A DNA stretch of 64,000 bases from a virus. The notes under the pieces were generated by a model. That model searched no databases. It was not told the origin of the DNA and saw only the letters and a program-made list of their open reading frames with translations. A program made the position numbers and the translations under genes. Below, piece by piece: positions 28,681-37,425 of this stretch; position 1 is the first letter of the stretch; the number at the start of each line of letters is the position of its first letter. The stretch is taken from the IMG/VR virus record IMGVR_UViG_3300045284_000330, positions 1 to 64,000 of that record, one strand, 5' to 3'.

Positions 28681-29522
28681 CGCCACTCGCCTTCGAGTTG
28701 ATGCGCGATCTCACGACGCCGTGCGCCCTTCACGTGCGAGATTATCGGGATTGGTCTGGCCGTGAACCGCTGAACGATAAGGCCTGCCGAGCCGAACTAT
28801 GGAAGGCGGCGAACGAAAGTCAATTTTTTGAGCTATCCGCAATCGCGTCGCTTTGCGAAGAAAGCGGCGAAAAGATGCGTGCGTATTACGAGAATTCTCA
28901 CAGGTGGAATAGTCGGCTCGCATTCCTGCCTGCAGTCAAAACGTGGATCGAATTTGATTTTGGCGTAGATCGGCAAGCTTATTGCCTCGATAGCGGTGAT
29001 GATCCACTCGGAACTGCACATTTTGCGATAATCGCACGCAGACCACATCAGCCATGGACTTTCTGGCGACTCGGGGACATCGGAATGGTGAAATCCGAAG
29101 AAAAACCACATACTCTCACCTGCAACGCTGACAACGGAAAACGCAAGGGCGAAGCGTCCGAGCTGCAGTTCTTGGTCTACGCCGCGCTCGCCTTCATCAA
29201 TTCGCCTCGCATCATTGGTCGACGGCAGCACATGCCGCATGAGAGAGCCGAACGCGAACGGTTAAAATCGCGAGGGCTCGCAGGCAAGTTTCCATTGCGC
29301 GCGTGGACCGAGATCATCCTCAAGGTGATGCCGCCCGACGACAAGACTGGCGAACCCTCGCAAGAGGCGCACCTGACCGGCGAGCGCTGCCTACATTTCG
29401 TCCGCACGTTTTTGCGCGTGCGCCTCGGCCAGCTCGAGTATGTGAATTGCCATTGGCGCGGCGACCCAGCGCTCGGCATGAAGCGGTCGCGGTACATCCT
29501 GCGGCCAGAGGAGCGCGCATGA
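28677..29522 (+). CDS. Hypothetical phage protein
   Basis: A 281-residue protein from GTG 28677, coupled to its neighbours. It has LPAVKTWIEFDF in the first half and, near the end, C-L-H-F-V-R-T-F-L-R-V-R-L-G then N-C-H-W-R-G-D-P-A-L-G-M and R-Y-I-L. These patterns recur in a common alphaproteobacterial phage protein of unknown function found near recombination genes. Confidence 0.6.
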   Translation: MTPLAFELMRDLTTPCALHVRDYRDWSGREPLNDKACRAELWKAANESQFFELSAIASLCEESGEKMRAYYENSHRWNSRLAFLPAVKTWIEFDFGVDRQAYCLDSGDDPLGTAHFAIIARRPHQPWTFWRLGDIGMVKSEEKPHTLTCNADNGKRKGEASELQFLVYAALAFINSPRIIGRRQHMPHERAERERLKSRGLAGKFPLRAWTEIILKVMPPDDKTGEPSQEAHLTGERCLHFVRTFLRVRLGQLEYVNCHWRGDPALGMKRSRYILRPEERA

Positions 29523-30478
29523 TCGAAACGTTTGACATCACCGGGCGCCACGATCTGTGGTCCGAATTGCGCAAGGGCCAGGTGACGGCCAGCGCGGTCG
29601 CCGCGCTGCTCGACGCACACCCGTTTATGTCGCGTCTCGGCCTCCATCTTTTGAAGTCTGATTTGATCGCCGAGGACCCGGAGGAGACCGCGCCGATGAA
29701 ACGCGGGCGGTTACTCGAACCAGTTGCCGCGCAACTGCTAAGCGAGCTTCGGCCGAATTGGAAAATACAGTATCCGGTTGGGCTTTATTTCCGCGATACG
29801 GAGGCGAGGCTCGGGGCGACGCCGGATTGTTTTGCAACAGACGAAAACGGCAAGTTGGGTGTTGTCCAATTCAAATCGGTCGAGGAGACCTTTTTCAGGC
29901 GCCTCTGGCGCGACGAAGACCGCGCGATCTCGCCGCCGCTCTATCCGGTGATTCAGGCAATCACCGAGGCATATCTGACCAGCGCGAGCTGGGCCGCGGT
30001 CGCCGCGCTTGTGATTGGTTTCGGCGTCGAACTTCACATCGTCGAAATTCCCATTCACGCAGGCGTCATCGATCGGATCAAGGCCGAGGTGCGCGAATTT
30101 TGGGACCGCATCGAGCGGAAGGACCCACCGCCGGCGGACTACGCTCGGGACAGCAAACTGATTGCAAAACTATTCCCAGAAAGCGACGGGCACATTATCG
30201 ACCTGTCTTCCGATAATATGCTGCCGGAACTCGCCGTCCAGGATCGCGCTTTGGCTGACGAGATCAAGGAACGAAAAGAACGCCGCGAGGCCATCAAGAG
30301 CGAAATCCTGATGAAGCTCGGAACGGCCTCGGGCGCGACCTTTCAGGGCGGCCGCATCACGGCGAACACCGTTCACCGCAAAGCTTATACCGTCGCTGCA
30401 ACCGCATATCGAGATCTGCGAATAAAGCTCGAAGATCATGGAGGACCGCATCATGGAAGTGAAATGCATCGAGGTTAG
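29519..30478 (+). CDS. YqaJ-type viral recombinase exonuclease
   Basis: A 319-residue protein starting MIETFDITGRHDLWSELRKG. The YqaJ fold motifs are visible: G-Q-V-T-A-S-A-V-A-A-L-L-D, M-K-R-G-R-L-L-E-P-V-A, then G-A-T-P-D-C-F-A-T and V-V-Q-F-K-S-V (catalytic D and Q-x-K). It should digest double-stranded DNA ends to give single strands for the RecT protein encoded 0.5 kb downstream. A helical C-terminus (about 230-280) may contact RecT. Confidence 0.82.
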   Translation: MIETFDITGRHDLWSELRKGQVTASAVAALLDAHPFMSRLGLHLLKSDLIAEDPEETAPMKRGRLLEPVAAQLLSELRPNWKIQYPVGLYFRDTEARLGATPDCFATDENGKLGVVQFKSVEETFFRRLWRDEDRAISPPLYPVIQAITEAYLTSASWAAVAALVIGFGVELHIVEIPIHAGVIDRIKAEVREFWDRIERKDPPPADYARDSKLIAKLFPESDGHIIDLSSDNMLPELAVQDRALADEIKERKERREAIKSEILMKLGTASGATFQGGRITANTVHRKAYTVAATAYRDLRIKLEDHGGPHHGSEMHRG

Positions 30479-30791
30479 GGATCATAATACGTTTCTCCCC
30501 GTGATCTGCATCCGCCCGGTTCCGACGAATGCGGAGCAGCGCTATCTCCTGCGGCGCGATGGGTATCGCGGGGACGCGACGGAGCGCTGCATCATCATGA
30601 TCGACGCGCAGTGCCGCGGCGTTTCTTACGATCCCTATGACTGGCAAGGTGACAACAGAACCAAGCCGGTGGCGCATAATTTCATCGCAGAGCATTGGGA
30701 TGATTTGCGGGATGGCGATGTCGTGGATGTCGCGTTTATTCTCGGCGAAGCCGAAGAACGAAAGATCAGCGAGCGCGAGGAAGCAGTTTGA
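30453..30791 (+). CDS. Conserved phage hypothetical protein
   Basis: A 112-residue protein starting MEVKCIEVRDHNTFLPVICI. GGAGG lies 8 nt upstream, so the shorter start is preferred. The E-V-R-D-x-x-T-F-x-P-V start and Y-L-L-R-R-D-G-Y segment are shared with small proteins that accompany phage recombinases. It overlaps the exonuclease end by 26 bp. Confidence 0.6.
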   Translation: MEVKCIEVRDHNTFLPVICIRPVPTNAEQRYLLRRDGYRGDATERCIIMIDAQCRGVSYDPYDWQGDNRTKPVAHNFIAEHWDDLRDGDVVDVAFILGEAEERKISEREEAV

Positions 30792-30792
30792 G

Positions 30793-30945
30793 ACCTGGCA
30801 AGGCAGGACTTGGCGCGGCGAGGCGAGGCATGGCAAGGCGGGGCCGGGCAAGGCTTGGCGAGGCATGGGGCCGTATGGCCGGTTCAGTTTCAGTTGGGCG
30901 GGGCAAGGCACGGCGTGGCAGGGCAAGGTAGGGCACGGTTTTTAC
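30793..30945 (+). repeat. GGCNN pentanucleotide array upstream of RecT
   Basis: Two runs of GGC followed by two variable bases, in strict 5-nt phase: about 14 units from 30799 to 30868 and about 8-9 units from 30897 to 30942. The gap between them (about 25 bp) reads differently. The strand is G-rich and C-poor overall. Period 5 rules out a normal coding repeat. Non-coding; it lies between the small gene and recT. Confidence 0.8.
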
Positions 30946-30967
30946 CGTGAAAACGGAGCAAACAGCT

Positions 30968-31960
30968 ATGAACGAGATGCCAAATCAGGTCGCCGTCTTT
31001 CGACACGAATTGCAAAACATGGAACCGCAGTTCGCCGCGGCACTGCCGCCGCATATCACCGTTGCGCGTTTTGCGCGCGTTTTACAAACCGCCGTCCAGA
31101 ACAATCCAGACCTGCTCTACAAATGTGACCGTCGGTCGCTCTGGAACTCCGCGATGAAGTGCGCCCAGGATGGGTTGGTCGCCGACAATCGTGAGGCCGC
31201 CATCGTTGTTTATGGTGACCAAGCTCAATATCTCCCGATGATTGCTGGACTCCGCAAGAAGGCGCGCAACTCTGGCGAGATCGCGACGTGGGATGCGCAG
31301 GTCGTTCACGCCAAGGACGCATTCGAATTCGAGCTTGGCGACGAACCGTTTATCCGGCACCGGCCTTGCCTCGACGAAGACCCGGGGCCGGTGAGGGCGG
31401 CATATTCGGTCGCGGTGCTCAAGTCCGGCGAAAAATCTCGTGAGGTCATGTCGGTGACCGCCATCGAAAAGGTGCGCGCGCGCTCACGCGCTAAGAAGGG
31501 CGGGCCGTGGTTTACCGACTATGAAGAGATGTGTCGGAAGACCGTGGCTCGCCGGCATTCCAAAGTCCTACCAACTTCGGTAGATATCGACACTCTCCTG
31601 CAGCGCGATGACGACCTCTATGATCTTAAGACCGGTGCCGGCGATGGCGGCATCGCGCCAGGCGAAAAGCCGCGGACGCTCGCCGGCCGCCTCGACGCCT
31701 TGGCGGGGCCAGTCCGAGAAACCGTCCTGGCATCTCGGGAACACCGCCAGGACGGCGACGAAGGGGCGGGCGCGGGGGACGCAGACGGGGCGCCCGCCCC
31801 CGCACAGAATTCCGCTGTGGACCTTCAGCCGCCTGCATCGGCGCAGGCCGCAGGCTCGGCGAGCCCGGCGAAGACGCCCGCGGCCGACACCACCGAGGCG
31901 CGCGCATACCGGCCGGGAACCGGTGGCGCGCGCCTGTCTGATCTCGATGTGGGGGAATGA
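30968..31960 (+). CDS. RecT-family single-strand annealing protein
   Basis: A 330-residue protein; ATG 30968 has ACGGAG upstream, better than GTG 30947. Typical RecT order: P-P-H-I-T-V-A-R-F-A-R-V, L-W-N-S-A-M-K-C-A-Q-D-G-L-V-A-D, Q-Y-L-P-M-I-A-G-L-R-K-K-A, then W-F-T-D-Y-E-E-M-C-R-K-T-V-A-R-R. The C-terminal 100 residues are Ala/Pro-rich and disordered. Works with the YqaJ exonuclease in strand annealing or genome circularisation. Confidence 0.88.
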   Translation: MNEMPNQVAVFRHELQNMEPQFAAALPPHITVARFARVLQTAVQNNPDLLYKCDRRSLWNSAMKCAQDGLVADNREAAIVVYGDQAQYLPMIAGLRKKARNSGEIATWDAQVVHAKDAFEFELGDEPFIRHRPCLDEDPGPVRAAYSVAVLKSGEKSREVMSVTAIEKVRARSRAKKGGPWFTDYEEMCRKTVARRHSKVLPTSVDIDTLLQRDDDLYDLKTGAGDGGIAPGEKPRTLAGRLDALAGPVRETVLASREHRQDGDEGAGAGDADGAPAPAQNSAVDLQPPASAQAAGSASPAKTPAADTTEARAYRPGTGGARLSDLDVGE

Positions 31961-31963
31961 CAC

Positions 31964-32959
31964 TTGGCCCGTCGCATTATCACTCGTGAGAAAGCTCGTC
32001 GCATTATCACTCGTGAGGAAGCCATCCAGGCGGGGGCTAAATACTACTTCACTGGCAAGCCATGCAAGCGCGGGCACTTAAAACGCTATGCCAGCACTAC
32101 AAGATGCGTAGAATGCACTCTTGCTGGCTGCCGGCTGTATGAGAAGATGAACGCAGATAAGGTTAGAACATGGGGTAGATTATACCGGCAAAAGAACCTG
32201 GCCAAATTGGCAGCGTACCACCGGCGCTGGTACCAAAAAAATCGCGAGACACTTAGTGTTCGAGGTAAATTATATCGGCAAAAAAACGCGGATAAGATTA
32301 AAACACGCGACCGGCTGTATCGAGAACAGAATCGCGATAGTTTGAAAGCCTACCGGAAGAAGAATGCTGATAGGCGAAAAGCGCGCTACCGTGAATGGTG
32401 GCTAAAGAATTTGGATAAGAATAAGGCGCGCCGCAGATTGTACGTCCAAAAGAATGCGGAAAAGATTAGAGAACGCCGGCGGCTCCAGAGGCAAAAGAGT
32501 GCGGACCAGCGCAGGGCATACAGGCAATTGTATTATGAAAAGAACCGCGTAAAGATTATTGCTGCCAATCGTCTGTATTTTAAAGAAAATGCGGAAAAGA
32601 TTAGAGAACGCCGGCGAGTGCACAGACAAAAGAACGCGGATAAAATCAAGGCGGCTCGGTCGGCGTACCGCAGAAAGAATCATGACATCCTCGTCGCATA
32701 CAATCGGCGATATCATCTGGTGAATAATATTGCCGTTACCGCGCTGAGACAATTAGGAATTGAAATGTCGGCAGTGGGGCGCGGCCATCGCGGCAGCTTT
32801 GCCGCGGCCGCGCTGAAGCAGTTGGGAATTAAACTCAGGGAGGACGACAATGTTAGGCGAACGAAGCCCGCTGCAGCTATTGACCAATTTGATCGAAGAG
32901 GAGCCCACCGCGGATCAGGATACGATTTACCACAAGTGGCGAGCAAAGATCGCCGATGA
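31964..32959 (+). CDS. Repetitive basic helical protein with PCKRGH zinc-ribbon start
   Basis: A 331-residue protein from TTG 31964 with GGGGGA upstream. The first residues carry a 9-residue duplication (A-R-R-I-I-T-R-E-K/E), coded by a 21-bp repeat. Then G-K-P-C-K-R-G-H-L-K-R-Y-A-S-T-T-R-C-V-E-C, the ribbon seen before HNH nuclease domains. About 12 tandem 15-residue units follow, best copy RLYRQKNADKIKTRD, very basic and probably one long helix. No HNH motif is found. The last 35 codons overlap the next gene in another frame, so the natural end may be earlier. Function unknown; nucleic acid binding is likely. Confidence 0.6.
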   Translation: MARRIITREKARRIITREEAIQAGAKYYFTGKPCKRGHLKRYASTTRCVECTLAGCRLYEKMNADKVRTWGRLYRQKNLAKLAAYHRRWYQKNRETLSVRGKLYRQKNADKIKTRDRLYREQNRDSLKAYRKKNADRRKARYREWWLKNLDKNKARRRLYVQKNAEKIRERRRLQRQKSADQRRAYRQLYYEKNRVKIIAANRLYFKENAEKIRERRRVHRQKNADKIKAARSAYRRKNHDILVAYNRRYHLVNNIAVTALRQLGIEMSAVGRGHRGSFAAAALKQLGIKLREDDNVRRTKPAAAIDQFDRRGAHRGSGYDLPQVASKDRR

Positions 32960-36514: not shown

Positions 36515-37425
36515 TCGCCGGCCGGGTATGGGGCGACGATGAAAAGACGTTCCCCCAGGTCGTCGAAGTGTGGGAAGCGTCCTACATCGCCGGCGACCGC
36601 TCGGCCGGCCCAAACACCGTCAAGCGCTACAAAGTGAGCCTCGGGCAGATCATGCCCATCATCGGCGACCGGCCGGTCAAGGCGGTCGACGCCAAGCTGA
36701 TCCGCGAGGTCGTCGACGCCCGCCGCGCCGGCGGGGCGACCAACGCGACGCTGAAGCGCGACCTCGTCGCTCTGTCGAGCGTCATGAACTGCGCCGTCGC
36801 CCGCGAGTGGATCGACGCCAATCCGGTGCTGCCCCGGATGAAGGCGATCGTCGAGAAGCGCGAGCCGATCAATCTGCCGCGGCCAGCCGATGTCGAGCGG
36901 GTGATCGAGCGGGTGCCCGGTATGCTCAAGCAGCTCGTGCGGGCCGCAATCGTCACCGGCTGCCGTCTCAATGAGCTGGTGACGGCCAAGCGCGCCGACA
37001 TCGATCACGAGCGGGCGACCCTGACCGTGCTGGGCAAGCGCAACAAGCGGCGCACGATCGAGCTGGCGCCGATGGGCGGGTATGAGTTGATCCGGTCGCT
37101 GCCGGTCTTCGCCGGGTCGCCCTATGTTTTCTGGCACCACGACGGCAAACCTTATCGAAACCTGTCGGCCCGGTTTGCTTGGCTCGTGAAGGAAACCGGC
37201 GAGCTGGCGGCTGCCGAGGGGGTCGACTTTGCCCCGTTCTGTTTCCACGATCTGCGGCACCTGCACGCGACCCACTACCTGCATCAGGGGATCGACAATC
37301 TGTGGGTGCTCTCGAAGCGCCTCGGGCATACCTCGACCAAGGTGACCGAGCGCTATTTGCACGAGCTGAGCGAGGTCGAGGCAGCCGCGCAAATCCGCAA
37401 GGTCCAGCGGAGGAAGGCCGGATGA
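36358..37425 (+). CDS. Tyrosine integrase
   Basis: A 355-residue protein from ATG 36358. The N-terminal arm-binding domain (M-A-K-K-R-K-A-P-K-G-C-Y-W-V) is followed by a SAM-like core-binding domain. The catalytic residues can all be seen: Arg203 (T-G-C-R-L-N-E), His297 and Arg300 (H-D-L-R-H), His324 (L-G-H-T-S) and the tyrosine nucleophile Tyr333 (E-R-Y-L-H). attP lies 300 bp downstream. Confidence 0.9.
   Translation: MAKKRKAPKGCYWVGDVLYGRTRIKGKLERIALGTDNPAVAVGRRKAWHESLIAGRVWGDDEKTFPQVVEVWEASYIAGDRSAGPNTVKRYKVSLGQIMPIIGDRPVKAVDAKLIREVVDARRAGGATNATLKRDLVALSSVMNCAVAREWIDANPVLPRMKAIVEKREPINLPRPADVERVIERVPGMLKQLVRAAIVTGCRLNELVTAKRADIDHERATLTVLGKRNKRRTIELAPMGGYELIRSLPVFAGSPYVFWHHDGKPYRNLSARFAWLVKETGELAAAEGVDFAPFCFHDLRHLHATHYLHQGIDNLWVLSKRLGHTSTKVTERYLHELSEVEAAAQIRKVQRRKAG

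Follow-up and report, generated by a model that had tools for sequence, protein, structure and literature searches.

What does a strictly phased array of GGCNN pentamers do between the exonuclease and recT genes of a virus? The array lies at 30793–30945 of the window (the whole stretch of 64,000 nucleotides that was analyzed, part of a 74-kb viral record). A sequence-only reading had described it as two runs of GGC in a strict 5-nt register, and the count confirmed this: 21 of its 22 GGC triplets fall into a single mod-5 register, whereas 5,000 dinucleotide shuffles averaged 4.3 (sd 1.06) and never exceeded 9. All top plus-strand values of in-register GGC in the 64-kb window fall inside the array, while no site on the minus strand, over the whole 64 kb, exceeds five per 75 nt. 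The 30-nt spacer between the two runs preserves the phase.

The same reading had taken the array to be noncoding and more than a simple expanded repeat, and it was right on both counts. A coding sequence is ruled out by the 5-nt period and by the position between two gene ends, where the small ORF stops at 30791 and recT starts with the ATG at 30968; frames in GGCNN arrays stay open only because a stop codon requires NN = TA. A simple repeat is ruled out by the NN bases, which differ between units while the GGC framework is fixed. The unit is better written GGY-NN, since GGT is accepted in run 2. The NN series are AA AG TT GC GA GA AT AA GG CG AA TT GA AT in run 1 and GG AA AC GT AG AA AG AC TT in run 2. 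Folding of the whole predicted RNA is no better than that of shuffled sequences (z -0.13), and only local hairpins were revealed. A search of Rfam gave no match in the region of the window, and over 14 array loci it gave one tRNA and no hammerhead. The features of the locus are collected in Table 1.

Table 1. Features of the array region and its neighboring genes in the window; vrRNA assignments are putative and hairpins are predicted.
Feature	Position	Strand	Remarks
YqaJ/RecE-like exonuclease	29519..30478	+	Pfam YqaJ, phrog_434
Small ORF just before the array	30453..30791	+	No family match; homologue precedes the first vrRNAs of G041
Putative vrRNA 1, repeat tract	30797..30866	+	14 pentamers, 13 GGCNN; unit 3 = GACTT
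Putative vrRNA 1, 3' tail GGGGCCGTATGGCC	30867..30880	+	GGCC-GTAT-GGCC hairpin (RNA folding); identical 14 nt ends vrRNAs elsewhere
Putative vrRNA 2, repeat tract	30897..30941	+	9 GGY-NN units (7 GGC, 2 GGT); without the clade tail
Hairpin CACGGT-TTTT-ACCGTG	30934..30949	+	Overlaps the end of run 2, where the tail usually stands (RNA folding)
RecT single-strand annealing protein	30968..31960	+	Pfam RecT, phrog_148; no functional link to the array

Among the neighboring genes, the small ORF gave a single weak, stop-ridden match in 240 genomes of the Reyranella class. The ORF that follows recT (31964–32959) opens with a 27-nt tandem duplication (31970–32022) and encodes many repeats like RLYRQKNADKIK; its PHROG matches are weak and cover parts only.

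To see what accompanies such arrays, other viruses are informative. An exact scan for eight GGCNN units revealed arrays in at least 120 stretches of viral contigs. As a rule, they comprise roughly 8–19 units, often with several arrays per locus, and most begin a few nucleotides past a stop codon, and their GGC lies on the same strand as the coding sequence that precedes them. Among the matches listed, the phrog_4652 profile found exactly one member at each of 88 array loci, on the array strand in 86 of them and mostly within 0.8 kb of the array. The same pair was also found in the Mycobacterium cheoctoviruses Quico, Donkeykong and Brocalys. The PHROGs annotation of phrog_4652 is "unknown function"; a PDB search with the family profile gave entry 36pp ("SUSP1 Vipr protein"; E 3.5e-41), and Csm5 came up only weakly, below significance. 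The AlphaFold model of the family member from G041, a relative described below, has a pLDDT of 90.9, and its best PDB matches are type VII and type III Cas7/Csm subunits. We conclude that phrog_4652 is Vipr.

VIPR (Viral Interference Programmable Repeat) is a very recently described phage system, a RAMP-based, RNA-guided relative of CRISPR that was proposed to precede it (PMC13142463). Its protein, Vipr, is an ancestral RAMP; its RNA, the vrRNA, consists of 9–16 GGY/NN repeats and an invariant 3' tail, and the NN pairs recognize double-stranded DNA, skipping 1 nt between pairs (PMC13142463). VIPR acts by repressing transcription, for the most part in rival phages and prophages; its defining features include a ~100-nt vrRNA that co-purifies with Vipr and a vap accessory gene, and some satellites encode their own vrRNAs (PMC13142463).

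Several observations were made at the other loci. In Donkeykong (L131, NC_051648.1) the annotated "hypothetical protein" gp48 (record 36870–37256) overlaps a GGCNN vrRNA array, and it is likely that such arrays are widely annotated as spurious proteins, since they are open in most frames. In the Mycobacterium cheoctoviruses the VIPR loci adjoin the anti-repressor. At L017, L032, L039, L060, L071, L077 and others, arrays are linked by a 4-nt unit (GGCAGGC, register -1), with block periods of 44, 54, 59, 64 and 69 nt, and probably correspond to the staggered vrRNA arrays that PMC13142463 describes. A second family of unknown function, phrog_15946 (motif HPLHxxFxWDDxxAA), stands beside vipr and arrays at 28 loci and is a candidate accessory gene.

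Judged from its sequence, the array of the window is almost certainly a VIPR vrRNA. Run 1 has 14 units (13 of them GGY) and run 2 has nine, all GGY. Directly 3' of run 1 stands GGGGCCGTATGGCC, which is predicted to form a hairpin and agrees at 14/14 positions with tails beside vipr genes; run 2 lacks this tail and appears to be a truncated or recombined vrRNA. The same tail ends vrRNAs in L085, in L137–L143 and in Reyranella L145. When preceded by GGY/NN, it was met in no more than eight stretches, from seven other viral contigs, and Reyranella massiliensis 521 is the only bacterial genome in which it belongs to an array; the other genome match, from a Phycisphaerales MAG, has no array around it. 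Vipr is encoded in L085 and in five of the six other viral records that bear the tail. A tree of 87 Viprs places the five full-length proteins linked to the tail in a fully supported 10-member clade, in which they do not strictly form a single subclade; therefore, the tail indicates which Vipr clade could use the guide of the window. Tail sequence differs by Vipr clade, and this could allow orphan guides to be paired with Viprs. The last NN before GGGGCCGTATGGCC is nearly always AA, GA or AT in the tail-sharing clade and is probably not guide. In arrays L123, L116 and L122, which belong to the sister Vipr clade, the tails open with GGAAC, GGATC or GGACC after the last unit.

The closest view of a locus with vipr comes from G041 (44 kb, read as the reverse complement). 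Its gene order is an exonuclease VIII-like gene, a homologue of the small ORF, two tailed vrRNAs, two ORFs, seven more vrRNAs, vipr and a phrog_1366 gene, with vipr about 1.5 kb from the arrays. Positions 30451–30928 of the window match it by blastn at 69.9% (E 9e-56), and the small ORFs share 69% of amino acids and 71% of nucleotides (29% diverged). In a tail-anchored comparison of the first arrays, the framework is identical at 33/33 positions and the NN bases at 7/22, a pattern expected of a guide RNA with its fixed scaffold and changing information. In the light of the published system, the free bases of the array are best read as guide information (PMC13142463).

Compared with VIPR vrRNAs, especially those ending in GGGGCCGTATGGCC (L085, L137, G041), the locus shares (i) the GGY/NN pentamers, 9–16 in number; (ii) the fixed 3' hairpin tail; and (iii) an intergenic site among early genes, on the coding strand, with the same upstream gene pair in G041. 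It differs in that the record has no vipr, only one vrRNA is complete, the second is tail-less and the guide bases are other ones. A more distant parallel may be drawn with the class 1 crRNAs of CRISPR and their Cas7/Csm backbone, where an RNA scaffold is likewise coated by RAMP subunits at fixed spacing; there, spacers are contiguous, steps are 6 nt and CRISPR repeats are present, whereas VIPR uses a discontinuous NN code in 5-nt units, and no cas genes were noticed at this locus. The array itself is not a CRISPR array, having 5-nt units with two variable bases instead of identical direct repeats and unique spacers. TRAP-binding leader RNAs, which consist of (G/U)AG-NN repeats, resemble it in combining a trinucleotide with two free bases in a 5-nt register. 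However, the trinucleotide is different, and the free bases serve as spacers in TRAP-binding RNAs but as guide in the array. No link of the array to TRAP was found; TRAP-like binding was an early idea, dropped once phrog_4652 matched PDB 36pp.

In the 74-kb record, no Vipr was found by the phrog_4652 profile, a 59-row profile, the clade protein or hmmsearch --max. We also sought phrog_15946, common beside vipr in relatives, and did not find it in the record. With repeats and tail present and vipr missing from the same element, the locus was therefore filed as a variant, an orphan vrRNA. We consider it very probable that the array is an orphan VIPR guide locus, whose RNA would most likely work in trans, together with an L085/L137/G041-clade Vipr. 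Guides without Vipr are not discussed in the main text of PMC13142463, where the terms "orphan", "in trans" and "decoy" are absent. Arrays of this kind were seen elsewhere as well: solitary arrays of 10–14 units stand in the longer contigs L016 (105 kb), L082, L098 and L112, which have no detectable Vipr.

How such a guide might work can be outlined as follows. One complete vrRNA (14 units and the GGGGCCGTATGGCC hairpin), followed by a tail-less vrRNA of nine units, would form the guide locus, most likely transcribed with the early exonuclease-recT operon on the same strand. Vipr, a Cas7-like RAMP, would assemble on the vrRNA, each subunit taking up one 5-nt unit, with its GGY held and its NN displayed. 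These displayed pairs would then bind a DNA target of the pattern NNxNNx... and block its transcription, the target probably lying in a competing phage or prophage. A compatible Vipr of the L085/L137/G041 clade would most likely be supplied by a co-resident prophage or other element, or by an infecting phage. Vipr loading, the skip rule and repression are carried over to this locus from the published system; use in trans and the target we infer in this analysis only. The chance that the vrRNA is still used in trans with the Vipr of another element seems to us about even.

By the skip rule, run 1 would read the pattern AAxAGxTTxGCxGAxGAxATxAAxGGxCGxAAxTT(xGAxAT). Exact nine-unit target patterns had no match in the IMG/VR viral contigs, and eight-unit seeds gave 13 matches each, in unrelated genes and at about chance level by estimate. 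No target was found in 385 genomes of the Reyranella class with up to 3 mismatches of 28. A comparison of 295 arrays with 1.2 Mb of phage DNA gave no skip-rule signal, the sample being too small. The targets of such guides may be local, and an empty search neither supports nor refutes function.

The main rival to use in trans is a silent remnant. According to it, recombination put recT in place of the vipr portion of the module, and what is left is decaying and at most incidentally transcribed. We regard this as a possible course of events, though not the one we favor. In the window, recT occupies the position of the G041 vipr module, and run 2 stops abruptly and tail-less just before recT, as at a recombination junction; such a junction would explain both facts. 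The missing vipr, the G lost from unit 3 of run 1 and the lack of a found target are also in keeping with decay. However, run 1 is otherwise intact (13/14 units, tail 14/14) next to an ORF that is 29% diverged in nucleotides from G041, and a second tail-bearing array without Vipr is present in the Reyranella massiliensis genome. Nor is the framework more eroded where Vipr was not detected: its intactness is 97.8% in 18 such viral records and 97.0% in 88 with Vipr, the 18 being records of at least 18 kb with varied arrays, some of which may be fragments or hold more divergent Viprs.

Both the window and Reyranella thus carry solitary, tail-complete vrRNAs without vipr, and these would also suit an RNA decoy, that is, an orphan vrRNA that occupies the Vipr of a rival and keeps the rival's own guides unloaded. 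There is a parallel in some anti-CRISPR RNAs, in which solitary CRISPR repeats act as decoys. By analogy such a role is conceivable, but we think it unlikely here, as a decoy does not need 12–14 diverse NN pairs.

It is less likely still that the record is incomplete and that vipr of an ordinary VIPR locus lies off the contig. The record is linear and its tape-measure ORF is open at the left end, so that some sequence may be missing. On the other hand, vipr is close to the arrays in relatives, and in the window the corresponding segment is unbroken and carries recT. Genes for tape measure, head protein, protease, portal, terminase, tail, endolysin/lysis, integrase, repressor and helicase/primase-type proteins are all present. 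Thus, the record nearly amounts to a full temperate phage, although its completeness is not proven, since an ORF is cut at the left end. It should be added that positions 1–100 of the window contain a (GGC)n repeat in the tape-measure ORF that runs off this end, and that tail genes stand at the other end of the record as well (L154 end); it may be that a circularly permuted phage genome was broken at the (GGC)n repeat to give this contig.

Finally, the sequence-only reading had considered either an RNA structure or a Chi-like element, a primase start or a loading site for RecT or the exonuclease; action as RNA is most likely, while a DNA element of this kind, suggested only by the position between the exonuclease and recT genes, is hardly credible, because L128 and L129 have homologous recT genes (and L128 the homologous small ORF too) without the array, and arrays elsewhere follow vipr, not recT. 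The comparison with relatives is one that the sequence-only reading had itself proposed as a refuting test, and it went against the DNA element. L128 is the closest recT relative found (RecT 75–77% and small ORF 88% identical in amino acids), and there the small ORF runs straight into recT.

To return to the orphan guide, the VIPR reading accounts for the puzzling GGCNN arrays that genome annotation takes for spurious proteins. We tentatively suggest that orphan vrRNAs may be recurrent, with phages and prophages carrying tail-complete guides without Vipr that would either direct a Vipr encoded by a co-resident or infecting rival against a third party or jam it. A phage that is nearly complete, keeps guide and tail intact and has no vipr raises, together with the Reyranella case, the question of whether elements can share or hijack each other's Vipr.
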